A program made the position numbers and the translations under genes. This document shows positions 23,324-50,369 of a DNA stretch of 64,000 nucleotides, one piece after another. Source of the DNA: Actinomycetales bacterium. GTDB lineage: Bacteria; Actinomycetota; Actinomycetes; Actinomycetales; Microbacteriaceae. The notes under the pieces were generated by a model. That model saw only the letters and a list, made by a program, of their open reading frames with translations. It made no database searches and was not told where the DNA came from. The stretch spans positions 1 to 64,000 of the forward strand of contig JAATGV010000008.1 of assembly GCA_015654475.1 (NCBI GenBank). Direction: 5' to 3'. Each line of letters begins with the position of its first letter. The first letter of the stretch is position 1.

Positions 23324-23557
23324 GCGCGCTGTTCCGAGGTAGCAGTATCGGAGACCCCAAATCCGGATCCGAGCTAACGTTAGGCGCAGTCTTCGCTTGT
23401 GCGGTTGGTGCAGATACCGTGAACCCATAAAGTGAATAGTCGGGCCATATAAAACAGACGAGTGGCCGCCAGCAGACTGAGCCTCAGGCTGTACAGCGGT
23501 TGCGATTCTATGACAACTGACTACCAATATCGTCTCGTTACTCAAGGAGGAGCCGTT

Positions 23558-24025
23558 ATGACGGATGTTATCGCCGAGCTGGAGAACCAAGAAAGGGAGT
23601 TGGTCTTCGAGTCGTTCGACCACGCGGATGCGTGGCGACTCGGCTCGCGGATCACGCAGATCGCGCAGGAGGCCGGCCACGCGGTCGGTATCGATATTCG
23701 GCGCCGCGGTCTGATTCTTTTCCGTGCCGCGCTGCCGGGGATCACTCCCGATCAGGAGAGCTGGATTGATAGGAAGTCGGCTCTCGTCCTGCGTATGGAA
23801 CACAGTAGCGCTCTTGTGGATGCGCGGCATTCTGCGGCAGGAATCGACGCGGCCGCCATCGGCTGGCTGGGTTCGGACTATGCCATCACCGGGGGTTCGT
23901 TTCCCATCCGGGTTCGAGGGGTCGGTGTGGTTGCTGCCGCCACTGCCTCGGGATTGTCTTCCCAGGAGGATCACGACCTCGTCGTCGCCGGTATCCGTTC
24001 CTATCTGGCTGAAGGAGAGCACTGA
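23558..24025 (+). CDS. HbpS/GlcG-like haem-binding domain protein (UPF0303 type)
   Basis: 155 aa from ATG 23558, chosen because AAGGAGGAG lies six bases upstream. The sequence ELVFESFDHADAWRLG, then IDIRRRGLILFRAALPG, MEHSS and GGSFPIRV follows the UPF0303/heme-degrading domain family (YBR137W-like). These are small cytosolic proteins of a profilin-like fold, some of which bind haem; the in vivo role is unclear. No signal peptide. The stop overlaps the next ATG (TGATG), so the two genes are co-translated. Confidence 0.85.
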   Translation: MTDVIAELENQERELVFESFDHADAWRLGSRITQIAQEAGHAVGIDIRRRGLILFRAALPGITPDQESWIDRKSALVLRMEHSSALVDARHSAAGIDAAAIGWLGSDYAITGGSFPIRVRGVGVVAAATASGLSSQEDHDLVVAGIRSYLAEGEH

Positions 24026-24918
24026 TGAGCGAGAGTGACCCGGTTCGTCGGTTGGAGGACGGACAGCGCGCTCGCATCCGGGTCTGGGAGCGGGCGAGCG
24101 GAACAGTCCGCGACGTGTATGAGTCTCGTGATCGTCTCTATGAAGCGCCCAATTGGACGACGGATGGCCGCCTCATCGTGAACGCCTCCGGACTACTGTG
24201 GACGGTTCCGGTCGATGGATCAGCATCGCCGCAGCCTATTCCCGCAACCGGACTTCCCGAGGTCAACAACGATCATGTGCTCTCGCCGGATGGCAGCAAG
24301 ATTTTTGCCTCGGCAAATGATTGGCATATCTGGGAGGTTTTGCTCGACGGCGGTCCTGCCCGGCGGGTAACACACGAGGATGGTGCGATGCATTTCCTGC
24401 ATGGCGTCAGCCCAGACGGTGGCATGCTTGGCTACGTCCGGTTGGAGCCGGAGGGGGACAATTGGTGGGCCTCCGCCACTATTCACACGATAGATCTCGA
24501 TGGCGGGCACGATGTTGCCATCACCACCGATCCGGGGCCGGCAGACGGGTGCGAGTGGACGCCGGGGGGAGACTGGATTGTCTTCAACACCGAACAGTTC
24601 TCAACCGACGCCGGGCATGCGCAGCTCGCAAGGGTTCGGCCCGACGGAACCGAACTGGAACAACTGACGTTCGATGAGCGTGTCAACTGGTTCCCGCATG
24701 TCGCGCCGACCGGCGACATTGTTGTCTATCTCAGCTATCCGTCCGGCACGACGGGGCATCCTGCTGACCTACCCGTCGAACTTCGGTTGGTTTCCATCGA
24801 TGACTGGCAGCAGCCCACGACCCTTGTCCTTCTCAATGGCGGGCAGGGAACGATCAACGTACCCAGCTGGGCTCCCGACGGATCAGCATTCGCATTCGTC
24901 GACTATCCCTTCGACTAG
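24025..24918 (+). CDS. TolB-like beta-propeller protein (PD40 repeats)
   Basis: 297 aa, start overlapping the previous stop. At least five repeats of the type LSPDGSKIFA, GVSPDGGMLGY, WTPGGDWIVF, VAPTGDIVVY and WAPDGSAFAF mark WD40-like PD40 blades, forming a propeller of about six blades. There is no signal peptide, so unlike E. coli TolB it is probably cytosolic. Coupling to the haem-domain protein suggests a shared, unknown role. Such proteins often resemble hydrolase or sugar-lyase domains, but I see no catalytic residues. Convergent with the GT2 gene, 47 bp away. Confidence 0.85.
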   Translation: MSESDPVRRLEDGQRARIRVWERASGTVRDVYESRDRLYEAPNWTTDGRLIVNASGLLWTVPVDGSASPQPIPATGLPEVNNDHVLSPDGSKIFASANDWHIWEVLLDGGPARRVTHEDGAMHFLHGVSPDGGMLGYVRLEPEGDNWWASATIHTIDLDGGHDVAITTDPGPADGCEWTPGGDWIVFNTEQFSTDAGHAQLARVRPDGTELEQLTFDERVNWFPHVAPTGDIVVYLSYPSGTTGHPADLPVELRLVSIDDWQQPTTLVLLNGGQGTINVPSWAPDGSAFAFVDYPFD

Positions 24919-24965: not shown

Positions 24966-25745
24966 TTAGTGGATAGGGCTGGGGTCGTCTTCTTCGAGAG
25001 GCCTCAAACTCACGCCTTTGCTTGAGGTTTGATAGAAGGCTCCTGCCGAGCCGGTCATCGATCTCGGTGTGAGCGGCCGTCTCATCATGTTTCTGAGGTA
25101 GCCGGCGTAGCCTCCGGGTGTTTGCCCTCGCAGCCGGGCGGATGTAATCACTTCTGCGTCGCTTGAGGCCACCTGCGAGTGCCCGGCGAGCCGCGTGACG
25201 AGGTCGACATCCTCATGTTCGGGCAATCGTCGATACCCGCCGATGCTGAGGTAAGCGGAGGCACGGAAGCCGAGGTTGGCACCGTGGACGTGTCCGTTGG
25301 GCTGTCCTTTGATATGGGTCTCTTCCCATTTGCGTTGCAGTTCCTCTGGGGATTCGCGAGGGTCCGGTCGGACAGTTCCGATGACGACGTCGTATCCGGA
25401 GTCGGCATATCCGATCTGTGCGGTGAGCCAGTTTTCAGGGACGACAGAGTCCGCATCGGTGTTCGCCAACCATATGTCCTTTGGAGGGAGGTCGAGGGAA
25501 TGCAGAGCGTGGAGTGCCGCGGTGCGGCGCGCCGTTCCAACGTTGGAGCTTTCGATCTCCACTACCTGCACGCCCTGCACGCTTCGGGCGACAGCAGCAG
25601 TGTCATCGAGACAGCCGTCGGCCACCACGGTAATCATCACATCGACCGAGCAGTGCTGTTTGGCGGCGATCACCGACCGGAGGCACCGTTCGATGCGGTC
25701 GCTCTCATCGCGGGCGGGGATGAGGACAGCTGCATGGTTGATCAT
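24966..25745 (-). CDS. Family 2 glycosyltransferase
   Basis: 259 aa. GT-A fold signatures: VLIPARDESDRIERCLRSV near the start, VVADGCLDDT, then the DxD-type motif ANTDADSVVPENW near residue 95-105 and HGANLGFRASAYLSIGGYRRLPEHEDVDL for the acceptor side. No membrane segment, so it is a cytosolic, soluble enzyme. It is the last gene of a minus-strand operon and its ATG overlaps the previous stop (ATGA). Donor and acceptor sugars are unknown. Context with a PIG-L deacetylase and a methyltransferase suggests transfer of an amino sugar to a small molecule; that is inference. Confidence 0.92.
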   Translation of the reverse strand: MINHAAVLIPARDESDRIERCLRSVIAAKQHCSVDVMITVVADGCLDDTAAVARSVQGVQVVEIESSNVGTARRTAALHALHSLDLPPKDIWLANTDADSVVPENWLTAQIGYADSGYDVVIGTVRPDPRESPEELQRKWEETHIKGQPNGHVHGANLGFRASAYLSIGGYRRLPEHEDVDLVTRLAGHSQVASSDAEVITSARLRGQTPGGYAGYLRNMMRRPLTPRSMTGSAGAFYQTSSKGVSLRPLEEDDPSPIH

Positions 25746-27037
25746 ACGAGGTGTTCCCGCTGTGCAACCGAGCGTGCGTCTTCGCTGAAGACATCGAGCA
25801 CAAAGTCATCTTCGACGTGATGAACCAGGCGCGTCCATCCCTGCCTGGCGATCATTGGGTGCACTTCGTCTCCGGTCATCGGGTGGTCAGCAACCGGATG
25901 GCGCCAATGGCACGCAACGAGAACCCCGCCTGGGGTGAGACTCGCACGAATCTTTCTCAGTACCGTATTGAGGCCTGAGGCACCCCAGTAGTAGGCGACT
26001 TCGGAAAGAACGATCAGATCGAACTCTCCAGGCGGAAAGTTCGTGAGCACATCCTGTGTGCGGATGGTGGCTCGCGACCCGACGAGTCTTTTCGCGTGTT
26101 CAACCGCGTCCGCGGAGATATCGACGGCCTGGAGATGATCGCAGCGGGAGGCGAGAAGCTCTGTGAGCATGCCGATGGAGCAGCCGATTTCCAGGCCTCG
26201 CCGGTAGCGCTCGTGGGGCAAGGAGGCGATTGTGATCTGCCGTTTGCGCTGTTCGTACCAGCGGGTGCGGAATCGCCACGGGTCGTCGGATTTTGCGTAG
26301 ATGGCATCGAAATAGTCTGCTCCGAGGATGCGATCGTTGGTGATGAAGATCTCCTGGCTGCCGTAGAAATGCTCGAGGAAGTCGGGACGGAGAATCGGCT
26401 GGTCGTCGCTCGTCTGGGAGCGGAAGTATCCGATGGCCTGAGCTTTTGTGTCTGCATCGATGTCAACGGTGACCATCCTTTCCCAGGGCGTGTCGGGGTG
26501 GTCCGGGTGTGCCCAGTGCCACATCCAGATCGGGTACTCGAGCACCCTTCTGCCGTCCGCAATTTCAACAGCGATCTCTCCGACAACCCGGTGGTCTCGG
26601 TGCTTATCGAATCTCCATGGCACGACGAGCACCGCATTCGGGCTCACGTCCCGCAGCGCGGATGCAAGCGCGTGCGTGATCTCGTCACGGTATTCTCGAA
26701 CCTCGCCGTCGGGAAAACCGAGCATCGTGATCGGAGCGTGTGGGGCAAGGTGCTTGATTGCCGTGGCGAGTTCGTCGGCCCGCTTCTCCGCGATTAGGGG
26801 GTCGCCGGGATGGGATGCGGCACCGTCTGTGACACAGAGGATGCGTACGGGCATGTGGGAGGCGTGGCAGAGGGCGATGAGCCCGCCCGCGCCGAGTGTC
26901 TCGTCGTCGGGGTGCGCACCGATGACCACGACTTCGTCGACGTCGCCCACCCGTAGGGGAGGTCGGTTGTGCATGCGGGAATCTGCCAGCCATTGCCGTT
27001 TCGTTGTGCCAAGCTGTGCGCTGTCAAAGATCACCAT
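25742..27037 (-). CDS. Bifunctional PIG-L deacetylase / SAM-dependent methyltransferase (NodS-like)
   Basis: 431 aa from ATG 27037; the frame is open to 27763 but that part is antisense-like to the previous gene. Residues about 35-215 are a PIG-L deacetylase: VVVIGAHPDDETLG and KHRDHR supply the zinc ligands found in LmbE/MshB-type enzymes that remove N-acetyl groups from amino sugars. Residues about 235-425 are a class I methyltransferase with GLEIGCSIGMLTELLA and FDLIVLSEVAYYW, resembling NodS N-methyltransferases. The fusion suggests deacetylation then methylation of the same amine. It overlaps the genes on both sides by 4-7 bp. Confidence 0.9.
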   Translation of the reverse strand: MVIFDSAQLGTTKRQWLADSRMHNRPPLRVGDVDEVVVIGAHPDDETLGAGGLIALCHASHMPVRILCVTDGAASHPGDPLIAEKRADELATAIKHLAPHAPITMLGFPDGEVREYRDEITHALASALRDVSPNAVLVVPWRFDKHRDHRVVGEIAVEIADGRRVLEYPIWMWHWAHPDHPDTPWERMVTVDIDADTKAQAIGYFRSQTSDDQPILRPDFLEHFYGSQEIFITNDRILGADYFDAIYAKSDDPWRFRTRWYEQRKRQITIASLPHERYRRGLEIGCSIGMLTELLASRCDHLQAVDISADAVEHAKRLVGSRATIRTQDVLTNFPPGEFDLIVLSEVAYYWGASGLNTVLRKIRASLTPGGVLVACHWRHPVADHPMTGDEVHPMIARQGWTRLVHHVEDDFVLDVFSEDARSVAQREHLV

Positions 27038-28032
27038 GGTGTGTCTTTCTGTGTGGTGAGGATGCTGCCGTGGGACGCTTCGTCGCGTTCGGCGTGATGT
27101 TGTCGGATGTAAAGTTGCAGGTCGGCGACCTGCTTTGCGTACACGGGGTCTGTTGACAGTGGACCGGGCCCGAGCGCGTGACCCGCCCGGGTGACGATCT
27201 CCTCGCATGACCGCGCTATCAGCCCGCGGACGCGTTTTGCGAGTAGTCGTCCGTCCACGGCGTCGTGTTCTTCTATGTGCGTGGCTGCGTCGACCAGAAC
27301 GCTGCGGCACGCGTTGAGGAGGGTGTCGATGGCGCCGAGGTGTGCGAGCAGGTGCGGGCTCTCGGCACGACGGGCCTGTGCCAGCACGGCACGTGCGATC
27401 CCGACGGCGCCTCCGAACCAGCACGCGGCAACACCTATGCCGCCCCACCAGAATCCGGGACGATCCAGATACCAGCCTGGCTCCCCGACTGGTTCGGCCG
27501 GAACTCGATCGAAAGTGACGGGGCCACTGGGTATCTCGACGAGGCCACGAGCATGCCACATGCCCTCGACGACGTGCACGCCCGGATCGGAGAGTCTTAC
27601 CGAGAACAGGCGCGGGCCGCTGGGGGTGTTCGCGGTGATCAGCGCCGAGTCGAGAACGGAGGCGAGAGAACACCAGGGCTTGGTTCCCTGCAGCATCCAT
27701 CCCCCTGGTACTGGTGTGGCGCGAAGCGGATCGAGGCCGCCTTCGGCAGCGAATACGCCCCATACGCCATCTGGAATCGGTCGGCTCGCTTGGGTGAGGA
27801 TGGCAACGGCATCCAGGTGAGGTTCGATGGCGCGCGCCACTCCCATGTCATGTGCTGCGAGGGTGGCGAGCATTTCCCACAGCTCACGGGTGCCACCGCG
27901 TCCAAGCGTGGGGGCTTTTTCGCTGAGGTCTTTTGCGAGGGCCAATGCGCCGGGGATGTCATCGGGGAGTGCCTGCCCGAGGGAGGTGAGCATGGCTGGT
28001 GGATTTTCGTCTTCGTTGAGTAACACAGTCAT
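27031..28032 (-). CDS. Acyl-CoA dehydrogenase-like protein, divergent and short
   Basis: 333 aa from ATG 28032, where GGAGGTGAGC gives a strong ribosome-binding site; longer starts are rejected. The order of segments follows acyl-CoA dehydrogenases: GVFAAEGGLDPLRATPVPGG with a WMLQGTKPWCSLA stretch in the middle domain, and a helical C-terminal domain. The usual YEGTSEIQ end and the catalytic Glu region are not recognisable, and the protein is 50 aa shorter than typical, so it may bind flavin and act on an unusual substrate or not be an oxidase. It opens the acad, PIG-L/MT, GT2 trio; overlap with the next gene is 7 bp. Confidence 0.82.
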   Translation of the reverse strand: MTVLLNEDENPPAMLTSLGQALPDDIPGALALAKDLSEKAPTLGRGGTRELWEMLATLAAHDMGVARAIEPHLDAVAILTQASRPIPDGVWGVFAAEGGLDPLRATPVPGGWMLQGTKPWCSLASVLDSALITANTPSGPRLFSVRLSDPGVHVVEGMWHARGLVEIPSGPVTFDRVPAEPVGEPGWYLDRPGFWWGGIGVAACWFGGAVGIARAVLAQARRAESPHLLAHLGAIDTLLNACRSVLVDAATHIEEHDAVDGRLLAKRVRGLIARSCEEIVTRAGHALGPGPLSTDPVYAKQVADLQLYIRQHHAERDEASHGSILTTQKDTPW

Positions 28033-28063
28033 GCTCACCTCCGTCATATGGTGCTCGTCGACG

Positions 28064-28279
28064 TTACGCTGCCGCACGCGCTCGGTCGCGCCCAGGGAGG
28101 GCAAGGTTGGAGATTGCAACCAGTGCTGATAGTCCGACGAAGACGTAGATGACGCGCGATGCAGCGGATCCTTCGCCAAAGAGCGTATCGACGAGATTGA
28201 ACTCGAATGCGCCCACCAGCCCCCAGTTGATGCCACCGATGATGCAGAGGACGGTGGCAATGCGGACAACCCAGATCAC
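28064..28279 (-). CDS. DUF378 small membrane protein
   Basis: 71 aa. Start is a GTG at 28279 with AAAGGA upstream; no ATG is available, and the longer frame to 28669 is a shadow. Two membrane segments at about 2-20 and 38-57 with GGINWGLVGAF and NLVDTLFG between them are the DUF378 (YuzA) signature. Function is unknown. It ends 31 bp before the acyl-CoA dehydrogenase-like gene and starts 5 bp after the previous stop, so it is in the same operon. Confidence 0.85.
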   Translation of the reverse strand: MIWVVRIATVLCIIGGINWGLVGAFEFNLVDTLFGEGSAASRVIYVFVGLSALVAISNLALPGRDRARAAA

Positions 28280-28284
28280 GGTAG

Positions 28285-28545
28285 TCAGTCCTTTTCGTTC
28301 TTCAGAGCGATACCGAGGGCGAGAAATGTCGGCGCCCACTGCCCGACGAAGATTCCCCACCGGTCGGACTGTGCTTTGCTGTCGTCCTTGCCACGGGAGG
28401 CGAGCCACGACACCAGGGATATCCCGATGGACGCAAATCCGGCGGTGTATGCGTGGCCGCTGCGCACGCCCCACTTCGAGAGCACGCGGACGGGGTTCCA
28501 GGCGGTGGCCTCTGCGGCCTGTTGTACGTCTTTCTTGCCAACCAT
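28285..28545 (-). CDS. Small membrane protein, function unknown (first gene of operon)
   Basis: 86 aa from ATG 28545, supported by AAAGGAGTGG about eight bases upstream; the alternative ATG at 28566 lacks this. A soluble basic N-terminus (GKKDVQQAAEATAWNPVRVLSKWG) is followed by one or two membrane segments (GFASIGISLVSWL and IFVGQWAPTFLALGIAL). It resembles small actinobacterial membrane proteins paired with DUF378, probably stress-related, but I cannot name the family. It heads the five-gene minus-strand operon. Confidence 0.75.
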   Translation of the reverse strand: MVGKKDVQQAAEATAWNPVRVLSKWGVRSGHAYTAGFASIGISLVSWLASRGKDDSKAQSDRWGIFVGQWAPTFLALGIALKNEKD

Positions 28546-31789: not shown

Positions 31790-31851
31790 CAGTTCTGCGG
31801 CCTCGGCTCAGCACTATTTTTGAGGCCACGTAAGACTGCCGTAAGAGGTAG

Positions 31852-31933
31852 TGCGGGAGAAGGGACTTGAACCCTCACGCTCGAAAGCACAGGAACCTAA
31901 ATCCTGCGTGTCTGCCAATTTCACCACTCCCGC
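31852..31933 (-). tRNA. tRNA-Leu (TAG)
   Basis: 82 nt on the minus strand with acceptor stem GCGGGAG/CTCCCGC, anticodon loop TTTAGGT (anticodon TAG), a long variable arm (TGCTTTCGAGCGT) typical of class II leucine tRNAs, and a GGTTCAAGT T loop. CCA is not encoded. Confidence 0.94.
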
Positions 31934-31935
31934 GA

Positions 31936-32209
31936 CTTGCCGCTAAGGCGAAGCATCGCTTCGCGCGGCCATGTCGCCGAGACCGCCGGAGGCGGTCTCG
32001 GGTTGTCTCGACTACGATATCGTGTTTTTTCGGGTGGTTCGGGGTGTGTCTTGCCGCTAAGGCGAAGCATTGCTTCGCGCGGCCATGTCGCCGAGACCGC
32101 CGGAGGCGGTCTCGGGTTGTCTCGACTACGATATCGTGTTTTTTCGGGTGGTTCGGGGTGTGTCTTGCCGCTAAGGCGAAGCATCGCTTCGCGCGGCCAT
32201 GTCGCCGAG
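31936..32209. repeat. 114-bp tandem repeat, 2.4 copies, each with paired hairpins
   Basis: Copy 1 is 31936-32049, copy 2 is 32050-32163 and copy 3 is cut at 46 bases, ending at 32209 directly before the MFS stop codon. Copies 1 and 2 differ at one base, in a hairpin loop (ATC versus ATT). Each full unit has GCGAAGC/GCTTCGC (7-bp stem, 3-nt loop), GAGACCGCC/GGCGGTCTC (9-bp stem, 3-nt loop), the palindrome CGATATCG and a T6 run. Because 114 is divisible by 3, frames stay open on both strands, but they are not genes. Confidence 0.95.
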
Positions 32210-41050: not shown

Positions 41051-41420
41051 GGGGACGATCGGTTTCGACACTGTCTTTTTGAGTGTGGGAAGCGGGCCGA
41101 GGAGGCGTGGGTTATCTCGTTAACGATCTCACGCAACTTATAGGTGCAAACACAAAGCGCACCGACTTCGCCCTCGCTGCTTAAGCGAGCTTCGAAGTCC
41201 GTCGAACTAGGGGTGCTTCTGCCCTAGTCTTCGGCGTCATTTAAGAAGCTGGCTGCTGCATTGCGCCGAAGGATGCAGCGGGACTTTTCACTTCGACTGG
41301 GCTTGTTGACCTAGGTGCCTGTAACAAAGGTCAGAGCCAAGTAGAACGTTTCAACAGGCTACGCCCGTAGAAGACACATGACATGAGCAGTGGACCCGGG
41401 TTCGATTCCCGGCGTCTCCA
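41051..41420 (+). ncRNA. ssrA: tmRNA
   Basis: 370 nt. The 5' end GGGGACG pairs with CGTCTCC near the 3' end to make the tRNA-like acceptor stem (one G-U), and GGTTTCGACA and GGTTCGATTCCC are the D- and T-arm hallmarks. The tag reading frame begins at 41147 (resume codon GCA) and ends at TAA 41182-41184, encoding ANTKRTDFALAA. CCA is not encoded. It tags stalled peptides with SmpB. tmRNA 3' ends are common integration sites, and foreign-looking DNA starts directly after it. Confidence 0.96.
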
Positions 41421-42023
41421 CAAACACGAAAGTGCTGACGGGAGTGCTACCGCGGCCACATGGCCTCGGTGCGCTTCCGTCTCTGTAAATGAGCACTTCA
41501 CGAAGTGGGCAAGGTGGATGCAAGCCCGCAACAAATGCGTGAAGGGCATTAAATGTTTCGGGTGGCTTTTCCGCCGGTGACCGGATTCTCCATGCCGGCT
41601 ACCATCCACGTTCGCTTTTCCAGGGACAAGACTGCTGTGAAGAATTTGGTTTGGTGCGACTGCGGTGACCAATGGGGGGAGGATCACTTCGTGGCTGTGA
41701 CCGCACAGGCACCCAATGTGTTCGTCGGGTTTTCCGACGCGGAGTGAGATCTCGGGCGAACAGGATCCCGTAGCCGGGCTGGTGTTCGATGCTGTCGATC
41801 GCTGTTCCTCTGAGTGCGCGATGTCCTTCTTGGACGTGTGTGCCCTGGATGAGGGTGCCTGCCTCCACCAGCTCCATGGTTTCCTTCCGCTTGAGGTTCC
41901 GTCGTGGCGGCAACCATCTCTTAGACCAGTTACAGGCCAATAGCGGCCACAGATCGGGCAGCGGTTGTCATTCTTGGTGCTTGGTGACAATCCGTGTCCT
42001 ATCTGGTCGGTAGAGTTCTGTGC
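41421..42023. other. Non-core region after tmRNA with weak small reading frames
   Basis: No convincing integrase. A minus frame 41599-41877 (92 aa, MELVEAGTLIQG start) has AAGGA before its ATG but ends in a basic non-conserved tail. A plus frame 41592-41747 (CDCGDQWGED) and a minus frame starting at 41990 with a zinc-ribbon-like RCPICGRYW overlap it. They may be fragments of phage genes; I cannot decide which frame was coding. No second copy of the tmRNA 3' end was seen in this stretch. Confidence 0.35.
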
Positions 42024-42527
42024 ATGGGGCAGATCGGGTTATGGATTGTCGCCGCGGGTCCGTGGATCTTGGCGGCAGTTCCGATCATCATCTCGGTGGC
42101 GGGCGTCATCGTCGCAATTCGCGCAAACAGGCTCTCTCATCTCATTGACGATCGATCAACTGAACGCAACGATGTGAGTTGGGAGTTGGTGTCGCCGAAA
42201 ATCTCGGAGGTGTCCGACACGTTCTCGATCAAAAACACGGGGATCGACGCAGCGGTGAACGTAGACATGGTTCTGCGCATTGATGGGACCCAGCACACGG
42301 AACATGCAGACCGTGTCGGCCCGAACGACTCCGTATCTTTCCGCACGACCGCATTGGAAGATGCGAAGCGAGAAGCCAAGAAAGACGCAGCACGGAATGC
42401 GCATACGTACGTCATGGGCAATGTGGCCGGCCTTTTCACATGGGAGGACGCTTACGAGGCTGTGGATGTTACCGGTCGAATCTATTGGCGGACGCCCCTT
42501 GGAACTCTACGTTCGGTCGAATTCTAG
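42024..42527 (+). CDS. Hypothetical protein with one N-terminal membrane segment
   Basis: 167 aa from ATG 42024; a GTG at 41994 is in frame. A membrane helix at about 6-32 (WIVAAGPWILAAVPIIISVAG) is followed by a soluble domain (NDVSWELVSPKISEVSDTFSIKNTGIDAA), a beta-sandwich-like pattern, then an Ala/Lys helix. No family recognised. It runs convergently into the terminase large-subunit remnant, stops overlapping by 4 bp (CTAG). Location suggests part of the integrated element. Confidence 0.6.
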   Translation: MGQIGLWIVAAGPWILAAVPIIISVAGVIVAIRANRLSHLIDDRSTERNDVSWELVSPKISEVSDTFSIKNTGIDAAVNVDMVLRIDGTQHTEHADRVGPNDSVSFRTTALEDAKREAKKDAARNAHTYVMGNVAGLFTWEDAYEAVDVTGRIYWRTPLGTLRSVEF

Positions 42528-43858
42528 GCTGTGAGTTTCTTTCGCCATAGGTCTTCGGTTGTGGCGATGGTGTATCGTCCGGCGTCTAATGAGTCGTCGT
42601 TGACTTTGACGGGTTCTTCTCGACCGTGGAGGAGCGCTTTGGGGGTTCCAGGCGTAGCCGGGTGCTTCTTGGATGAAGCCTTCGCATCGGTCTGTGACTT
42701 GCAGGTTTCCCTCGGCGAGTAGGGAGGCCATCATGGAGACGCCGAAGCCGACGTTTTTGACGGCGAGGTGTGTGGTCTCGCCTCTCAATTCGATTTCACG
42801 GGCGAAGTGTGTGACGGCGGAGTCGACGATCTTGAAGCGTGGTTTCAAGGCCAGCCCGATGTTGTTTTCTGGCAGGTGTGGTTTGTCCAGCCAGTCGAGC
42901 AACAGTTCGGCTTGTGTGGGCGGTGCTAGTGTTCCGGTGCCCTCTTGCCTGCCGACATACCGCCATTCGTCAATCAGAATCAGGCGGTGTTTGTACCCGT
43001 CGGCTTTGGTGCCTTTGGTGAGTCCAAGGAGTAGGGCGGCGGATGGGTGGACGGTGCCGTAGTCGATTCCCACGCCGAACAGTTCCGAAATGTTGGGGGT
43101 TTCTTCCGATGGGATCACATGCTTTGCGGGGTCCCACATGTCGAAGATTGCGCCCTCGGCGGCAACCCACGCACCCTCAATGAACCGCTTGTACCAAAGG
43201 CCCGTGTATTGGGCTCGGTACTGTGCTTTCTTCGCTTCGGACAGGATCGGGTTGTCGTCCATGGTGAAGTGCCAGCGACGCCAGCCCTCCAACTTGCGCA
43301 GTCGATCCAAGAAGTCTGTCTTGAACCAGTGGGCGGGCGAATCAGGGTTCGTTGTTCCGAATAGTCTTGATTCGTCCAAGGACATGCGACCGAGGAGTTG
43401 TTTGTAAGCGTCCTCGGGAAGGACCGTGATCTCATCCACATAGGCGAGGAGCACGGTCATGCCCCGGATCTTCGACTCGGCGCGGGCATCATTCATGCCG
43501 ATAACATGGATTTCACGACCGAAGATGTATGCCGTCGGGGCGTTCTCCCGGTACTTCACAAACGGTTTGAACACTTGCAACCCTGCGGAGTCTTCAATGG
43601 TCATAAAGAGTTGCGGTAAATGGAACCAAGGTTGGGGCCCACAATCACAATCCGGCCAGTATGTGGAGCGTCAGAGATCGCCAACAGGAACGCCAACACT
43701 GAAGTGTAGGTTTTGCCTGACCGGATCGAGCCTTCCCACACGCAATGCGTCCCGAACTGAGACGATACTAAGGACCGCGCCTGGTTACGAGACAGACTCT
43801 TCTGCGCTACCGGTGTTGCTATCAACGAACTCGTCGCCATAACCATCATCACCGCCAA
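42524..43858 (-). pseudogene. Phage terminase large subunit, two frameshifts
   Basis: The N-terminal fragment (43601-43858) has Walker A WEGSIRSGKTYTSVLA; the next frame (from 43604) carries the ATPase Walker B VLLAYVDEIT, the coupling motif GTTNPDSPAHW and nuclease-domain GIDYGTVHPSA. A shift at about 43601-43607 separates them (one T too few near CTTT). A second shift lies in the G5 run at 42641-42645: with one base removed the frame continues PKALLHGREEPVKVNDDSLDA to a TAG at 42524, the normal terminase end. As written the protein would be split and mis-ended, so it is probably non-functional. Confidence 0.85.
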
Positions 43859-44264
43859 CCAACAGTTCAGACTTCAACGCCGTCAACTGTTCAAGCACCG
43901 CGGCTGATTGATCTTCTTGGCCATTGCCGTCATACAAACCAGCAAGCTTCGCGCGCATATCCATCGCCTTGAACACCACATTCGCGGCCTGGGCATCCCC
44001 ATTGCGGGCGGCAGCCCAATGGCCCAACTGAAGAACATCGAGGCGTTCCAACTCTTGTACAAGTAACTGCTTCGCTTCTTGACGGGGGATTGCGGCAAGT
44101 TCTTGTTCAACCGCTTTGTATGCGGAAGCCTGATTCTTCCAGCCGACTTCCTCGGCGATGTCGCGGTAGTTCATGCCGGCGAGTCGAAGTTCGAGGGCCA
44201 GTTTGCGCTTTTCAGCGGCTTCTGCGAGCCTCTTGGTCGACTGGTGTCGAGTTTGTTTCGGCAT
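43785..44264 (-). CDS. Terminase small subunit-like HTH protein
   Basis: 159 aa from ATG 44264 with GGAG seven bases upstream. Basic N-terminus (MPKQTRHQSTKRLAE), then a helix-turn-helix LALELRLAGMNYRDIAEEVGWKNQASAY and a coiled-coil helix, the usual layout of small terminase subunits that recognise packaging sites. It overlaps the terminase large gene start. The acidic tail is open without damage. Packaging genes alone do not make a phage, so this looks like a remnant. Confidence 0.75.
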   Translation of the reverse strand: MPKQTRHQSTKRLAEAAEKRKLALELRLAGMNYRDIAEEVGWKNQASAYKAVEQELAAIPRQEAKQLLVQELERLDVLQLGHWAAARNGDAQAANVVFKAMDMRAKLAGLYDGNGQEDQSAAVLEQLTALKSELLVGGDDGYGDEFVDSNTGSAEESVS

Positions 44265-44462
44265 GATGTTGCTCCATTCGCCCGTCGCCTGTACGGGTTC
44301 AAGAAGGTGGGGGACGGCTACCTGTTACGCCTGATGTGAACTGTGAACCATGCGTTGGGGCCCTGAATGATCTGACTGAATGAGCGTCTAACGTTCTGCG
44401 ATTCCTGTGTAGGTATATCTAGAGAAAGCGCACCTGTCGGTGGGGTGGAACATAATGAAGCA

Positions 44463-45182
44463 ATGACCTTTGATGATGGCCTCACTACTGCGCAAGGCAT
44501 CCTGCTTAATCAAGAATCGGACTCCGCCAAGCATCTGCTTGCCTATGGTCTTCGCGCGTTGCGGAATGCCGCTTTTCATGACACCACGCGCGACCCGGTA
44601 ATGACGATGCTGTCAATTGGCTCCGAGAAACTGCTTAAGGTTTCGTTGGGACTGTTCAATGTGGCGACGGAACATGCATGGCCTTCAAAGGATGTGTTTA
44701 CCAAGGAATATCGACACGACCTAATCAAGATGGAGGGTCTGGTGCACAACGCGATTCGAGACAACATGGATCGTGCCACTCATCGCAAATATGTGGAGGA
44801 TCTTCTGACGGCGGTGGAGAATGACCCCGTGTGGCCACCATTGCTGGCGTCGCTCAATCGATACGGACAGAGCGGGAGGTTCTACTATCTCGATGCCCTG
44901 GCAGAAGAGCCACAACGCGCACCTAGCCCGGAGGCGTTCTGGGACGAGGTCGATAATGTCGCCGTCAATGACCCTGAACTTAAGGCGCTATTTCAGCGGA
45001 CGAGCCAGGACTTCGGTCTGTTCGACGAGTTCAATAGGAAACTTAACTTGGTTGCGGCAGGCAGCCTTAAGCAGTGGTGGGAATTGGTTGCCATGGCGGG
45101 CAAACAGGGTGTTATGGGAGAGCGTGGCAAGGGGTGGGGGCATGCTCAAAGCGCTATTGGGCGTCAGGTTATTGGCGATTAA
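44463..45182 (+). CDS. Hypothetical protein with an Rx4H motif (possible HEPN-like RNase)
   Basis: 239 aa from ATG 44463; a GTG at 44445 is in frame. The protein is mainly helical. LLAYGLRALRNAAFHDTT places R34 and H39 in an R-x4-H pattern at the end of a helix, the HEPN nuclease signature, and EKLLKVSLGLFNVATE follows as a second helix of the expected bundle. Other residues needed for HEPN are not evident, so the call is tentative. No antitoxin (MNT-like) gene is adjacent. It is divergent from the terminase genes, within the integrated element. Confidence 0.6.
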   Translation: MTFDDGLTTAQGILLNQESDSAKHLLAYGLRALRNAAFHDTTRDPVMTMLSIGSEKLLKVSLGLFNVATEHAWPSKDVFTKEYRHDLIKMEGLVHNAIRDNMDRATHRKYVEDLLTAVENDPVWPPLLASLNRYGQSGRFYYLDALAEEPQRAPSPEAFWDEVDNVAVNDPELKALFQRTSQDFGLFDEFNRKLNLVAAGSLKQWWELVAMAGKQGVMGERGKGWGHAQSAIGRQVIGD

Positions 45183-45481
45183 TTCTCTAGGGGACTGTCG
45201 TGGGTGGTATCTGTGATCGCGTCTGTACGCATTCCGGAGCCAATCGACAATACTTGACGTGAGACAAAGGGTAAGAAGTAGTGCGACTGGCGGGAGTGAT
45301 CCGCCTACCAAGCCCAGTCGAATCCCCGTCGCATGAAGCTTGGGGTCACAGGGGGAGGTTTCGAAGGTCTTTCGGGCACCAGTGTGCCTAGAGTCGCTAC
45401 AGCCGGTTAGTCCGCCGACCGCTACGCCCACAACGACGCTGACTGGACGACGTGAGGGCGAAGAGTGGATACGATGCTCAT

Positions 45482-45799
45482 ATGGAAGATCCCAGATGCG
45501 TTGCCTGTAAGACAGAAGACTACTTGTACTTCTTTGGGTATGAAGGAGCCTGGGAGGAGGAGCGTAATCTCCGTACAAGCTTGGGGGCTCGCCCGCCGAG
45601 CTATAAGCACCACTCGCCGGTGGTCCAATGGGTTTGCATGAATTGCGGGCTACGGGGTGGAAGGGGAGTGGCTGATAGTTGGGTCTTTCCTGTTGACTCC
45701 GAGAATCCCAAAGTTAGGCCTGAGGTGCCTTTCAACCGCGGAAAAGACGGCGGCTACATTTTTCGAGCCGGAGACCCAGCGGGGCTACCGCTATATTGA
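45482..45799 (+). CDS. Zinc-ribbon hypothetical protein
   Basis: 105 aa from ATG 45482. Two CxxC pairs (CVAC near residue 6 and CMNC near 53) form a probable zinc ribbon; aromatic residues around DYLYFFGYEGAW are unusual. No function recognised. It lies alone on the plus strand between the HEPN-like gene and the SHOCT gene, and is followed by a strong hairpin. The ribosome-binding site is weak. Confidence 0.55.
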   Translation: MEDPRCVACKTEDYLYFFGYEGAWEEERNLRTSLGARPPSYKHHSPVVQWVCMNCGLRGGRGVADSWVFPVDSENPKVRPEVPFNRGKDGGYIFRAGDPAGLPLY

Positions 45800-45814
45800 G
45801 CGACGAAGAGTGAT

Positions 45815-45842
45815 GCCCGTCACCATTCCCAGGGTGACGGGC
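45815..45842 (+). terminator. Hairpin after the zinc-ribbon gene
   Basis: A perfect 10-bp GC-rich stem (45815-45824 with 45833-45842) with an 8-nt loop, 15 bases after the stop at 45799. No T-run follows. Confidence 0.6.
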
Positions 45843-46045
45843 GGGGCAGGTTCGAAGGGGAACCTGCACGATTTGGAAAATATTTGTAGCGTTGCGCAGG
45901 GTGCAAGTCTATGTATCTATAGTCGTGACTTTCGCGAATTATTGCACGCATCATGTGGGTGTGTTGCAGGATGTTCAAGAAAGGTTTAGCGCTAAGCTCA
46001 TAACTAAGTTAGCAAGTGCGTTCACATACATAGAGAGGTGCCATC

Positions 46046-46699
46046 GTGCCTACCGAAGACAACGAACCAACCGTCGGGGAAGTCATTGACAACCCAGAGA
46101 AATATCCTGAGTACTCGCGAGAGATGCGGCGAATCACAGAGAAACTCCTTTCATCCACTGGTCGCGGAAGACTTGGGTCTTCCCTTAATATAACGTCTCA
46201 GCTCCCTGATGTAAGTGCGCTGGGCACAAGTATCCACGTCCCTAAAATTGATGATCTGATGTCTTCGAGCCAGGACAAACTTAAGTCGGCTACGGAGGCC
46301 GCACAGGCTGCTGCATCCGCGGCTACTGGACTCATCACTCCGGAAATCTCGAAGATGATTGCGCAAGCGAAAGAGAACTCAAAAGTCGTCGATCAGATTC
46401 GCAAGGTGGCTATCCCGTCTGGGTTGTTCGAGGGTGCCTCGAAGGCAACTCTTGCGCGAACGTTGGGTATCACCAGCGGAAGAGTGTCGCAGATAGTGAG
46501 TGAGCCAGCAAAGAAGCACATCGCTGCGGCAAAAGAGGCCGCGCTGGAACTTGAAAAGATTGACCCCTCGGCTCTCAGAGGCCCCTCGGCAGGTATCGTC
46601 TCTGAGCTTCGTGAACTTGGCGAGATGTTTCACTCTGGCCTTTTGACTAATGAAGAATTCACCCGCGCCAAAGATCGGGTATTGAATCCAGAGAGTTAG
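46046..46699 (+). CDS. HTH and SHOCT-domain protein
   Basis: 217 aa from GTG 46046 with AGAGGTG nine bases upstream. N-terminal half is acidic then Ala/Ser-rich and helical. ATLARTLGITSGRVSQIVSEP (about 134-154) is a helix-turn-helix. The last 35 residues (IVSELRELGEMFHSGLLTNEEFTRAKDRVL) are a SHOCT domain, often found at the C-terminus of phage and membrane regulatory proteins. It is plausible as a phage repressor or immunity gene, but no target site was found. The minus HTH gene overlaps its 3' part. Confidence 0.75.
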   Translation: MPTEDNEPTVGEVIDNPEKYPEYSREMRRITEKLLSSTGRGRLGSSLNITSQLPDVSALGTSIHVPKIDDLMSSSQDKLKSATEAAQAAASAATGLITPEISKMIAQAKENSKVVDQIRKVAIPSGLFEGASKATLARTLGITSGRVSQIVSEPAKKHIAAAKEAALELEKIDPSALRGPSAGIVSELRELGEMFHSGLLTNEEFTRAKDRVLNPES

Positions 46700-46891
46700 T
46701 GGTTCCCCCCTGGATGCTCTTCCGGTCGGCCGCCCGCGTTCCACCATGGCATCTGCCTTAAGAACATCGCGCAGTAGAACTACCCGGCGCCCGCGGCCAT
46801 CAACGAAGGCAGGTAGCAGGCCCTGGTTGATCCATGCATAAATACGTGAAGGGTGCTTTTCCACTTTGTATGCCGCTTGTGCAACCGTCAC
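46379..46891 (-). CDS. Excisionase/HTH-like protein, C-terminus probably extended by a frameshift
   Basis: The first ~65 residues (VTVAQAAYKVEKHPSRIYAWINQGLLPAF) match the MerR/excisionase HTH type that bends DNA. After GRPTGRASRG the frame runs antisense through the SHOCT gene. A C6 run on the plus strand (46705-46710) sits at this point: one base fewer gives GNH and a TAA at 46696, a normal end of about 68 aa. The written frame of 170 aa is therefore probably not the ancestral product. GTG start at 46891, following a gene 12 bp upstream. Confidence 0.6.
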   Translation of the reverse strand: MTVAQAAYKVEKHPSRIYAWINQGLLPAFVDGRGRRVVLLRDVLKADAMVERGRPTGRASRGEPLTLWIQYPIFGAGEFFISQKARVKHLAKFTKLRDDTCRGASESRGVNLFKFQRGLFCRSDVLLCWLTHYLRHSSAGDTQRSRKSCLRGTLEQPRRDSHLANLIDDF

Positions 46892-46902
46892 TAGGTCAGT
46901 CG

Positions 46903-47211
46903 TCAGCGCCCACCCTCTTGCATTGATCGGATATGTTCAAGCGTGGGCCTGTCACCGCTCAAGTAAGGCTCTAAGTATTCCACGAAGACCTCTTCTGGCG
47001 AAGCTCCCTGGGCGAGACGGTCCTTGAAGTATTGGTCTCGGTCGCGTTGCTCCTGAACTTGTTGAACGTCGAACTGTACTGACCTTTGCCTGGACTCTGC
47101 GTCCCATTGCTGCTGGCAATCTCCGCATCGTTGAAGCTGTTGTTGTGTCCGGTTCTTTTTGTACACGCTTTTACCACAACCGTCTGGGCACGGAAATGGC
47201 CTCACTGCCAA
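46903..47211 (-). CDS. Small zinc-ribbon protein
   Basis: 102 aa; GTG at 47205 is an alternative start giving 100 aa. A zinc ribbon is formed by CPDGCGKSVYKK and RCGDCQQQW near the N-terminus, then a Gln/Arg-rich charged helix and LEPYLSGDRPT. No family recognised. It overlaps the preceding gene by about 40 bp and precedes the HTH gene, so it belongs to a dense minus-strand operon of small genes. Confidence 0.6.
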   Translation of the reverse strand: MAVRPFPCPDGCGKSVYKKNRTQQQLQRCGDCQQQWDAESRQRSVQFDVQQVQEQRDRDQYFKDRLAQGASPEEVFVEYLEPYLSGDRPTLEHIRSMQEGGR

Positions 47212-47509
47212 CCAGTTTGTGCACTTCCCCTGCGTGGTGGATTCCGAAAGCCTTGGCGATTTCGGTTACTCGAACATCTGGATATTGCCAGTAAACTCGC
47301 TTGACTAGATCCCACGGAGTCGGTTCGTCATTGATGAAGAGGGCAGCTCCGAGCCTGTGCAATGCATCTTCAACTCGGTCACGAGTCTCAATCACTTTGG
47401 CCGCAGCATCTTTGGCTGAGGCTAGGTCGTTGTCCAGCTCCGACAAGCAACTTTCGGTTTCGTCGAGGAATTCTGAGGTGCGTACTTGAGCCATTTTGTC
47501 GCTTGTCAC
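47171..47509 (-). CDS. Small helical protein with C-terminal HTH
   Basis: 112 aa from GTG 47509, whose first bases overlap the previous TGA (GTGA). N-terminal two-thirds is a coiled coil (ETESCLSELDNDLASAKDAAAKVIETRDRVEDAL); the C-terminus VRVTEIAKAFGIHHAGEVHKL is a helix-turn-helix. It is likely a DNA-binding regulator of the element. Function not known. Confidence 0.6.
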   Translation of the reverse strand: MTSDKMAQVRTSEFLDETESCLSELDNDLASAKDAAAKVIETRDRVEDALHRLGAALFINDEPTPWDLVKRVYWQYPDVRVTEIAKAFGIHHAGEVHKLVGSEAISVPRRLW

Positions 47510-47991
47510 TTTCGTTTCCCGAGCCCAGGAAGTCCTCCGCGTACAACCTGAGATTTGCTCGTGAGGTAGATCATTGCGGGTGTTGCTTTCCTGGAGTTGC
47601 GGAGCTTCGTGGTCGAAACTGAGTAGGTCTTCTTGACATTTCTTGTCTTCCTAGAACCGGACTTCTCCTGCCCTTTCACACGCACGGTTGCCAAGGAACC
47701 GTCGCATCGCGTTCCTTCAGGTAACAAGTGGATTGACATGCGGCCATCCGGCAAGACGAGGTGCTCTGAATCACAATCGACGCAATATTCGTGGTCATGA
47801 TAAAGCGCTTCAACCTCTGATTTAGGGCGCTTGGTTCGCCTCTTTACAGGCTTCCTTGCCCTACTCGTCACATATGTTGAGCCTGAAGCTGGGCACTTTT
47901 TCCCAGATGGTGTCGCGTGTTCGGCGAAGAGCGCACCCCCGAGCGGCACATTTTGCTCACAAACCGGACACCTTCCGTTCACTGAGCTCAA
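47506..47991 (-). CDS. Zinc-binding hypothetical protein
   Basis: 161 aa. Cys pairs CPVCEQN at the N-terminus and CVDCDSEH in the middle suggest two zinc sites; the rest is Lys/Arg-rich (KPVKRRTKRPKSE, RKTRNVKKTY), consistent with nucleic acid binding. First gene of the small minus-strand operon that continues through 47171, 46903 and 46379. No family recognised. The overlap with the next start (GTGA) argues that all are translated together. Confidence 0.6.
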   Translation of the reverse strand: MSSVNGRCPVCEQNVPLGGALFAEHATPSGKKCPASGSTYVTSRARKPVKRRTKRPKSEVEALYHDHEYCVDCDSEHLVLPDGRMSIHLLPEGTRCDGSLATVRVKGQEKSGSRKTRNVKKTYSVSTTKLRNSRKATPAMIYLTSKSQVVRGGLPGLGKRK

Positions 47992-48082
47992 CTCCTAGAC
48001 TTCCCCAGATTTTACAGCGCTGGTGGTTCCAACACGAGGACAACTGTCGGCACGTTTCAGTGACACAAATTAATTGTTTGGC

Positions 48083-48421
48083 CTAAAACGGCCAGGTCGC
48101 GACCAGCGAAAATCCGGCCGCGAAGACCATCATGAACCACGAGTATGCCGCATAATCAAGATGACGGTCATACTGCAGTTCTTCCTCGCTCAGGACAGTT
48201 TCGTGCACCTCTGCGACCTTCATCTTTACAGCGATGCGTCGTTGGCGGAACTCCCACCAGTGCGGAAAGTCTGACTTCGTCTTCGCAACCTGCTCTTGGG
48301 TCAGGCTATTCAGCGCTACCAGGTAGCCGGCACCGTGAATTGCAGCAGAGATAGAAAGATATGCCTGCCAAATAGTGCCGCCGGTAGCCAACAACGCTGC
48401 GAAAAATGCCCAGTCAATCAT
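48083..48421 (-). CDS. Membrane protein, last gene of the rtcB operon
   Basis: 112 aa with hydrophobic segments at about 4-22, 28-42 and 90-108, and a charged middle (QEQVAKTKSDFPHWWEFRQRR, EVHETVLSEEELQYDR). It starts 3 bases after the 62-aa gene stop, so it is co-transcribed with rtcB. I do not recognise the family. Ribosome-binding site not clear. Confidence 0.55.
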   Translation of the reverse strand: MIDWAFFAALLATGGTIWQAYLSISAAIHGAGYLVALNSLTQEQVAKTKSDFPHWWEFRQRRIAVKMKVAEVHETVLSEEELQYDRHLDYAAYSWFMMVFAAGFSLVATWPF

Positions 48422-48424
48422 GCT

Positions 48425-48613
48425 TCAAACGCTACGACGAGGCACTGACACGCAGCTCACTAAACCCGCGATAATCGCGGATACATGCGTCACTGCCGCA
48501 GCGAGCGCATCGAACCGACCTGTCACGCGGTCGAATGGTGCACGTCTCCGCCTTGCGGCACCCTGAACCTTGATCTTCGGGAAGTGGCGGGGCGTTCTGG
48601 GTTTAGTGCTCAT
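48425..48613 (-). CDS. Small basic protein coupled to rtcB
   Basis: 62 aa. The ATG at 48611-48613 overlaps the rtcB stop by one base (TAATG), so translation is coupled. The sequence is strongly basic (KPRTPRHFPKIKVQGAARRRR) with a hydrophobic C-terminal stretch. It resembles no archease; it could bind RNA or be a spurious short frame, but its tight spacing to both neighbours supports it. Confidence 0.5.
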   Translation of the reverse strand: MSTKPRTPRHFPKIKVQGAARRRRAPFDRVTGRFDALAAAVTHVSAIIAGLVSCVSVPRRSV

Positions 48614-49779
48614 TAGTCGCCTTTCACGTTGACGAGTTGGTGTAATGTGTGCCGGATCGACACCAAGTCCGCGGAGTCGTTCATCACTACGTCGATGTTT
48701 TTGTAGGCGGCGGGGATCTCGTCAATGAATGCGTCCGTGTGCCGGTACTCGATGCCTTGCATGGATTCTTCGAGCTGTGCCATGGTGAATGTTTTTCGAG
48801 CCAGTGAGCGCGAGTAGTCACGTCCGGCACCATGCGGCGCGGAACATAGGGCAAGCCGGTTACCCTTACCCTCCACCACGTAGGACGCGGTACCCATGGA
48901 GCCAGGGATCAAGCCCATCACCCCCTCGTGTGCGTCGATAGCACCCTTGCGCGACACAATCAGTTCACGACCAAAGTGCGTCTCAAGGGACGTGTAGTTG
49001 TGGTGGCACTGTATCGTCTCAAGCCGCTCCACAGCCTGACCAGTCCACACCTCGAATGCGGTAACAACCCGGTCCATCATCTCGGCACGATTTTGCAAAG
49101 CGAACTCCTGCGCCCAATGCAACTCGGCCATGTACCGGGAGAACTCTTTCGTCCCCTGCACAAGGTAAGCAAGGTCGTCATCTCTCAACCTGATCCACCA
49201 CTTTGCCATCTGCTCCTGCGCAACCTTGATATGGTGTTGGGCAATTTTGTTCCCAATACCACGCGACCCGGAGTGCAGGAATAACCACACGTCGTCGTTC
49301 TCATCGGCAGTGATCTCAATGAAGTGATTACCTGAACCGAGTGTGCCTAGTTGTAACGCCCAATTCGGAGCATAACTGGAAGGATCGAAACCGTACTTCT
49401 CAGCTAACTCGGTAAGCGCCTCAACCCGATCCCTGGCCGAATCCGTGAGAGACGTGTTGTACTTGCCTGCCGAGAGTGGAATAGCAGCCTCAATAGCCTC
49501 CCGCACCGCTCTACGATCCTCCGGCAGATCTTTGACCGTGAACTGGGTTCGCACCGCGATCATCCCACAACCAATATCCACACCAACCGCCGCAGGGATC
49601 ACCGCACGCTCAGTCGGGATCACCGACCCCACCGTTGCACCCTTACCCAAATGTGCGTCAGGCATCAACGCCACATGCGGAAAAATGAACGGCAACGTCG
49701 CCGTCACCCTCGCCTGTTCAAGCGTGTTATCTGCAATATCCGAAGCCCACACAAACAACTTCTTGCTATCCTGCCTCAT
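48613..49779 (-). CDS. rtcB: RtcB-type RNA-splicing/repair ligase
   Basis: 388 aa, short for RtcB (about 400-480). Signature motifs: PDAHLGKGATVGSV, VGVDIGCGM with metal ligand Cys71, LGTLGSGNHFIE, HSGSRGIG, SRKGAIDAHEG and, near residue 318, CSAPHGAGRDYSR with the His that carries GMP. It joins 2',3'-cyclic phosphate to 5'-OH RNA ends using GTP and manganese, in tRNA repair. No archease gene is nearby. It heads a small minus-strand operon. Its place beside phage remnants fits phage-borne RtcB, used against host anticodon nucleases (inference). Confidence 0.93.
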   Translation of the reverse strand: MRQDSKKLFVWASDIADNTLEQARVTATLPFIFPHVALMPDAHLGKGATVGSVIPTERAVIPAAVGVDIGCGMIAVRTQFTVKDLPEDRRAVREAIEAAIPLSAGKYNTSLTDSARDRVEALTELAEKYGFDPSSYAPNWALQLGTLGSGNHFIEITADENDDVWLFLHSGSRGIGNKIAQHHIKVAQEQMAKWWIRLRDDDLAYLVQGTKEFSRYMAELHWAQEFALQNRAEMMDRVVTAFEVWTGQAVERLETIQCHHNYTSLETHFGRELIVSRKGAIDAHEGVMGLIPGSMGTASYVVEGKGNRLALCSAPHGAGRDYSRSLARKTFTMAQLEESMQGIEYRHTDAFIDEIPAAYKNIDVVMNDSADLVSIRHTLHQLVNVKGD

Positions 49780-50369
49780 CGTTTACCTTCCTAAAACATC
49801 TACGCGGGTAAGCTTCGTCGAAATTGCCGTCGTTCTGTCACTCGCAACAGGAGCATCCCAGTCTAGAGAACGGTTCGCCCCCGTAATCGCTACTCGAAGC
49901 GGCGGGAGTAGGGATCATCCTACGTAAACCGGGCAGCCACGATTCGGAAATACGCCTACTCGAAGGCCTTGCGGCAAAGTATCCGAATTCGAAACCTATC
50001 GCCGAGCGAGGGACGATGGCACAAAGTTCGCAAGCAAGCATGGATGACTAAATCGTTGTTGAGGGCTTCAACACCTCGACCGCTTTCCTGACCGCTCGGC
50101 TTCAGTACGCTGTTGCCTCCGCTGGGGGGGGGCTAAGCTCAGTGCCTACTTCGTCATTGCTAACTACTATTGGTGGCGGCAAGATAAGGTCGTGAGCATC
50201 GGTAGTAACGACTTTATAATTGGTATTAGGCGTGTCGCGGTGACCATAGTGGTCGGACCCACTCATTTGCTTCGCATGCTTGCAGCACCTGCACCAATAG
50301 CTCTGCTGATGCCTGCCGAACCATAGAGGGTTTTGGCAAGAAGCGGATTGAGGGAATCGAGCGTTTGCT
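49780..50369. other. Gene-free 590-bp stretch
   Basis: No supported gene on either strand. CTACTCGAAG occurs twice (around 49890 and 49958), a weak direct repeat. A run of nine G lies at about 50125. It contains the promoter of rtcB on the minus strand but no clear boxes; it may be the right edge of the integrated element. Confidence 0.4.

Follow-up and report, generated by a model that had tools for sequence, protein, structure and literature searches.

A conserved three-gene cassette joins Nod-like deacetylase and methyltransferase domains to an acyl-CoA dehydrogenase-fold flavoprotein in a predicted amino-sugar pathway

A 64,000-nt stretch of DNA from an Actinomycetales bacterium (Microbacteriaceae; assembly GCA_015654475.1, contig JAATGV010000008.1, positions 1–64,000, forward strand; hereafter the window) carries on its minus strand a conserved cassette of three genes. 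These encode a flavoprotein with the acyl-CoA dehydrogenase (ACAD) fold (27031–28032, 333 aa), a fusion of a PIG-L deacetylase with a NodS-like, S-adenosylmethionine (SAM)-dependent methyltransferase (25742–27037, 431 aa) and a short, soluble family 2 glycosyltransferase (GT2; 24966–25745, 259 aa). On balance, we lean towards a cytosolic pathway in which these four activities produce a modified amino-sugar metabolite that helps cells to survive stress. In the scheme that we propose, the GT2 would transfer an N-acetylamino sugar (probably N-acetylglucosamine, GlcNAc, from its uridine diphosphate form) to a small acceptor, the PIG-L domain would remove the acetyl group, the NodS-like domain would N-methylate the freed amine, and the ACAD-fold protein would act as an oxygenase dependent on reduced flavin and O2, most likely on the methylated nitrogen. 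Residue conservation supports the predicted glycosyl transfer, deacetylation and N-methylation; the order of the steps, the donor, the acceptor, the N-oxidation and the biological role we infer. Each enzyme family is already known, and what appears new is the combination of Nod-like deacetylation and N-methylation with a flavin enzyme.

The three genes travel together. Separate queries with each protein against 149 genomes of the order matched the ACAD-like protein in 45, the fusion or its halves in 46 and the GT2 in 44. All three are present in 44 of the 149 (~30%), at a spacing that is always ≤5 kb and mostly <150 bp (Fisher p ~3e-34 for the ACAD-like protein with the fusion, with phylogeny not corrected for); each protein was searched for independently, so the co-occurrence cannot stem from the choice of a single bait. 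The genomes that depart from it are one with an ACAD-like match alone and two with the methyltransferase part alone. An earlier note on this DNA had reasoned that unrelated neighbours of the fusion would speak against a shared pathway; the survey finds the opposite, with constant partners within 5 kb in 44 of 44 genomes. The order ACAD–fusion–GT2 is kept in nearly all of 80 named actinobacterial loci, with the PIG-L and methyltransferase proteins unfused in Rathayibacter and a changed gene order in Frondihabitans. The same four activities recur, unfused and clustered, in plasmid-collection records from Acinetobacter, Comamonas, Pandoraea, Cupriavidus, Legionella and Sphingomonas; the range of the cassette spans alpha-, beta- and gammaproteobacteria, several orders and several fusion states, and takes in plasmids of clinical Acinetobacter isolates. 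The PIG-L gene of Cupriavidus basilensis lies nearby on the opposite strand. On a Pandoraea vervacti plasmid (L034, 9194–9914), the cassette GT2 is split over two overlapping open reading frames (ORFs), probably by a frameshift. A search of viral contigs with the ACAD-like protein gave no relative, and a viral origin is not supported.

The fusion of a deacetylase with an N-methyltransferase, recognized in the earlier note, is borne out by Pfam, which finds both families within the one 431-aa protein: PIG-L (LmbE; PF02585, domain at 26561–26929, E 9.9e-25, 88 bits against a gathering score of 28.2) and NodS (PF05401, domain at 25907–26290, E 7.8e-17, 62.2 bits against 24). Against the NCBIfam NodS equivalog, the methyltransferase scores 68.8 bits, with a cut-off of 300. 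An alignment of 18 fusions shows conservation of both the PIG-L metal residues (motifs AHPDDE and HxDH, the latter HRDH in the window) and the SAM site, and H42, D44, D45, H146 and H149 are invariant in the PIG-L domain of the aligned fusions. Foldseek searches with the AlphaFold model (predicted local distance difference test, pLDDT, 92) place Bradyrhizobium japonicum NodS first (3ofk, template modelling (TM) score 0.82 normalized to NodS) and 4isc second, and match the PIG-L half to the folds of TT1542, BshB and diacetylchitobiose deacetylase. By sequence, the closest solved relative of the methyltransferase is 4isc (E 2e-34), a 'putative methyltransferase' of Pseudomonas syringae from structural genomics, which is a stand-alone protein whereas the methyltransferase here is fused. 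MshB, BshB, TT1542 and diacetylchitobiose deacetylase have the AHPDDE and HxDH metal site in common with the PIG-L domain, and GlcNAc-type N-deacetylation is likely to be common to them as well. Unlike MshB and BshB, the fusion carries a methyltransferase, keeps other pathway partners and scores below the equivalog cut-offs of both.

Further evidence on the deacetylation step comes from divergent ACAD-like proteins, which a phylum-wide search matched at E values between about 1e-20 and 1e-39; one family (f34) accounts for almost all of them. At each of the 16 divergent actinobacterial loci fetched (L140–L155), the gene directly upstream of that for the ACAD-like protein encodes a carbohydrate esterase family 4 (CE4) deacetylase of the NodB type (PF01522, TFDDGPDPVWTP, TFDDGP motif), and a NodS-like methyltransferase gene is present as well. 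Such clusters of CE4, ACAD-like and NodS-like genes, found also at L156, L157, L158, L169 and L170, have a distinct architecture; a Pyr_redox_2 reductase follows the methyltransferase in L156, L157, L158 and L170, and is itself followed by a GT2 in L156, L158 and L170. The sequence stretches read at the divergent CE4 loci contain no PIG-L match. CE4 and PIG-L enzymes have unrelated folds and carry out the same type of reaction, and, as they occupy the same slot, one is therefore a non-orthologous replacement of the other. This is good evidence that N-deacetylation is the function of this slot. The swap of a PIG-L for a NodB-type enzyme makes a strong and testable prediction of the chemistry.

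The GT2 (PF00535, Pfam E 4.6e-15) retains its catalytic TDAD and ED residues, invariant across 29 members. It belongs to no named family; the arsenosugar-type, EpsD and mycofactocin glycosyltransferases come nearest, at scores far below cut-off. No solved structure matches it by single sequence, and profile searches give general GT2 matches only. Rhizobial Nod factor synthesis likewise combines a GT2 (NodC) with an N-deacetylase (NodB) and an N-methyltransferase (NodS), and the Nod factor logic that the earlier note had drawn from this likeness holds in part. Among solved folds, NodS comes closest to the cassette methyltransferase; the deacetylase metal residues are kept, and a NodB-type CE4 enzyme serves in some of the actinobacterial versions. 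All of this supports the note's suggestion of a pathway that applies Nod-like chemistry to an amino sugar. The likeness fails at the glycosyltransferase, since NodC is a membrane chitin synthase whereas the cassette GT2 is short and soluble, with no transmembrane segment and without the QxxRW motif of processive NodC. Most cassettes also differ from a Nod factor system in using a PIG-L deacetylase, and the set includes an ACAD-fold flavoprotein; the cassette is not a Nod factor system.

The same trio of activities would also suit an enzyme set that modifies a cell-surface or lipid-linked glycan (Nod-factor-like, or an envelope decoration) and not a soluble metabolite, and the GT2 profile weakly matches lipid-linked sugar transferases and exopolysaccharide enzymes. 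We think this unlikely, given that the three core proteins have no transmembrane segments by hydropathy, that the CE4 replacements examined by the same means have no strongly hydrophobic segment and that the annotated regions show no recurrent flippase, exporter or polymerase beside the cassette.

For the flavoprotein, the label 'acyl-CoA dehydrogenase-like' used in the earlier note proves a poor guide to chemistry, as the catalytic Glu is gone. Pfam gives a match to Acyl-CoA_dh_M only (E 3e-07, below the curated cut-off). The AlphaFold model has a pLDDT of 93 and shows the amino-terminal, middle and carboxy-terminal ACAD fold: of 311 PDB matches (E ≤ 0.001), the best 50 all share it. In profile searches of the PDB, 5gj7/5z8t come first, entries whose titles read acyl-CoA dehydrogenase type 2 domain protein and flavin-containing monooxygenase, and DszC, TdsC, CarC and MsuC follow; group D oxygenases make up most of the top hidden Markov model (HMM) matches to solved structures. 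In an alignment to a canonical ACAD profile (five ACADs only, taken from relatives), the catalytic Glu pairs with Gln316, which is invariant in 52 sequences; judged by this residue, the protein is not an enzymatic acyl-CoA dehydrogenase. Alignment with DszC shows a GTK-x-x-CS motif and a helix His common to the ACAD-like family. Among the top fold matches are the sugar N-oxygenase KijD3 and the nitrososynthase DnmZ, which oxidize the amine of nucleotide-bound amino sugars. Work on sugar N-oxygenases is cited in PMC6165268. By these comparisons, the ACAD-like protein resembles the group D flavin monooxygenases (DszC/TdsC, MsuC, KijD3 and DnmZ), the fold class of KijD3 and DnmZ, in combining the ACAD fold with loss of the catalytic Glu; it differs in being ~60 residues shorter, with 16–22% identity in structural alignments, and in that the operon of the window has no reductase. 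We propose that it is a group D type flavin-dependent oxygenase predicted to act on an amine.

Three observations weigh against an oxygenase. True ACADs reach equally high TM-scores, and the fold alone cannot separate oxygenase from dehydrogenase; the HMM ranking is mixed, with CarC and ColB1 scoring close to MsuC; and the only dedicated reductases seen are those of the CE4-type clusters and one close to an Embleya locus. As true ACADs fit the fold equally well, the assignment therefore draws on the motifs, the lost Glu and pathway logic. With the rest of the pathway unchanged, the flavoprotein might instead be a dehydrogenase or desaturase whose target is a C–N bond or a group bound to a carrier or to CoA, as the ACAD fold itself and HMM matches that include CarC and ColB1, a carrier-bound cysteine dehydrogenase, would allow. 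To this we attach a low probability in view of the invariant replacement of Glu by Gln, the presence of the DszC-type CS motif and helix His, and the finding of no recurrent acyl carrier or CoA ligase in the clusters read. A role in beta-oxidation is also unlikely, because the ACAD C-terminal domain family has just one other match in the window's genome. Current names for the cassette genes (acyl-CoA dehydrogenase, nodulation protein) are misleading.

Many neighbours of the cassette are stress genes, otsA/otsB, Dps, catalase and CsbD among them, and they suggest conditions under which the product of the proposed amino-sugar pathway might be sought. Two Comamonas species have otsA and otsB flanking it; its neighbours are otsB and a glycoside hydrolase family 65 (GH65) enzyme in Legionella, catalase, DUF421 and otsA/otsB in Acinetobacter, and catalase and glgE in Cupriavidus. 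CsbD is beside it in Pandoraea and one actinobacterial genome, several loci of Cryobacterium and Arthrobacter have Dps just upstream, and another genome has DJ-1, a sigma factor and a SpoIIE phosphatase nearby. The window's genome encodes OtsA elsewhere. For Acinetobacter baumannii, PMC5660220 groups ACICU_02432–02435 into a single operon, its genes named as glycosyltransferase, SAM methyltransferase, LmbE protein and acyl-CoA dehydrogenase-related protein, and reports expression down 31–62-fold, alongside otsA/otsB, in colistin-dependent mutants. These genes are unfused and appear there as transcriptome-table entries without an assigned function, compared with the fused actinobacterial cassette. 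A stress role is weakened on two counts: ACICU_02432–02435 were equated with the cassette (record L124) by gene names and order and not by sequence, and the search for a SigB/SigF-type promoter upstream of 80 actinobacterial loci gave 2 matches against about 0.5–0.7 expected, which is not convincing and leaves stress control in actinobacteria tentative. A text search of alphaproteobacterial stress-regulon papers and a Mycobacterium smegmatis SigF regulon paper did not find the gene set.

A more specific proposal, which we regard as a long shot, is that the product is an N-oxygenated, N-methylated amino sugar (a sugar hydroxylamine or nitrone) that would serve as an intracellular protectant or radical scavenger in a widespread stress-associated pathway. 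We know of no such chemistry among bacterial stress protectants. If true, the synthesis of an N-oxygenated amino-sugar protectant would rely on one or the other of two unrelated deacetylases. The cassette may reveal a protectant general to bacteria. The earlier note knew of no characterized pathway with this set of genes, and none was found in the open-access literature searched, in which PMC5660220 alone lists the operon.

A stress role would fit a branch of the synthesis of mycothiol- or bacillithiol-like low-molecular-weight thiols, with PIG-L acting as in MshB or BshB, and the PIG-L domain does match BshB and TT1542 among solved folds. We rejected this candidate as highly improbable: family cut-offs are missed (15.3 bits for the fusion against an NCBIfam MshB cut-off of 224.35), two separate and better MshB-like genes are present in the genome (contig C19), the cassette has no cysteine ligase, and the set is also found in Gram-negative bacteria.

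In the window, the operon comprises five minus-strand ORFs at 24966–28545, all present as the earlier note had described them. Upstream of the cassette are genes for a DUF378 small membrane protein (28064–28279, 71 aa; PF04070, Pfam E 4e-22) and for an 86-aa protein with no Pfam match (28285–28545). The packing of 4–31 bp that the note reported applies to the gaps here, 5 bp between the 86-aa and DUF378 genes and 31 bp between the DUF378 and ACAD-like genes (measured from the ATG at 28032), whereas the core genes overlap, the ACAD-like gene and the fusion by 7 nt and the fusion and GT2 by 4 nt. A GGAGG lies a short way upstream of the ATG at 28032; an alternative start at 28047 would give a protein of 338 aa. 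Both small proteins had been taken for membrane proteins: by hydropathy, the DUF378 protein is the sole clear one of the five, and the 86-aa protein is not clearly so. The cassette probably shares its transcript with the two small genes. These stand beside it in the two closest loci alone (L039 and L040) and are therefore local additions, and the conserved unit is one of three genes (four activities), not the five first proposed. Although the small genes are not conserved with the cassette, as chance packing of unrelated genes would predict, that explanation has a negligible probability and is refuted for the three core genes by their linkage in 44 of 44 genomes and the recurrence of the same set in several proteobacterial classes.

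Two plus-strand genes converge on the operon, encoding an HbpS-like haem-degrading family protein (23462–24025; PF03928, E 8e-25) and a PD40/WD40-like beta-propeller protein (24025–24918). Elsewhere in the window, a 114-bp unit is present in 2.4 tandem copies, 98% identical (31936–32209), adjoining a tRNA-Leu gene at 31851–31933. The region 42000–50000, which follows a transfer-messenger RNA (tmRNA) gene at 41051–41421, has a lowered G+C content (down to 0.53) and many short ORFs, and is possibly an integrated element.

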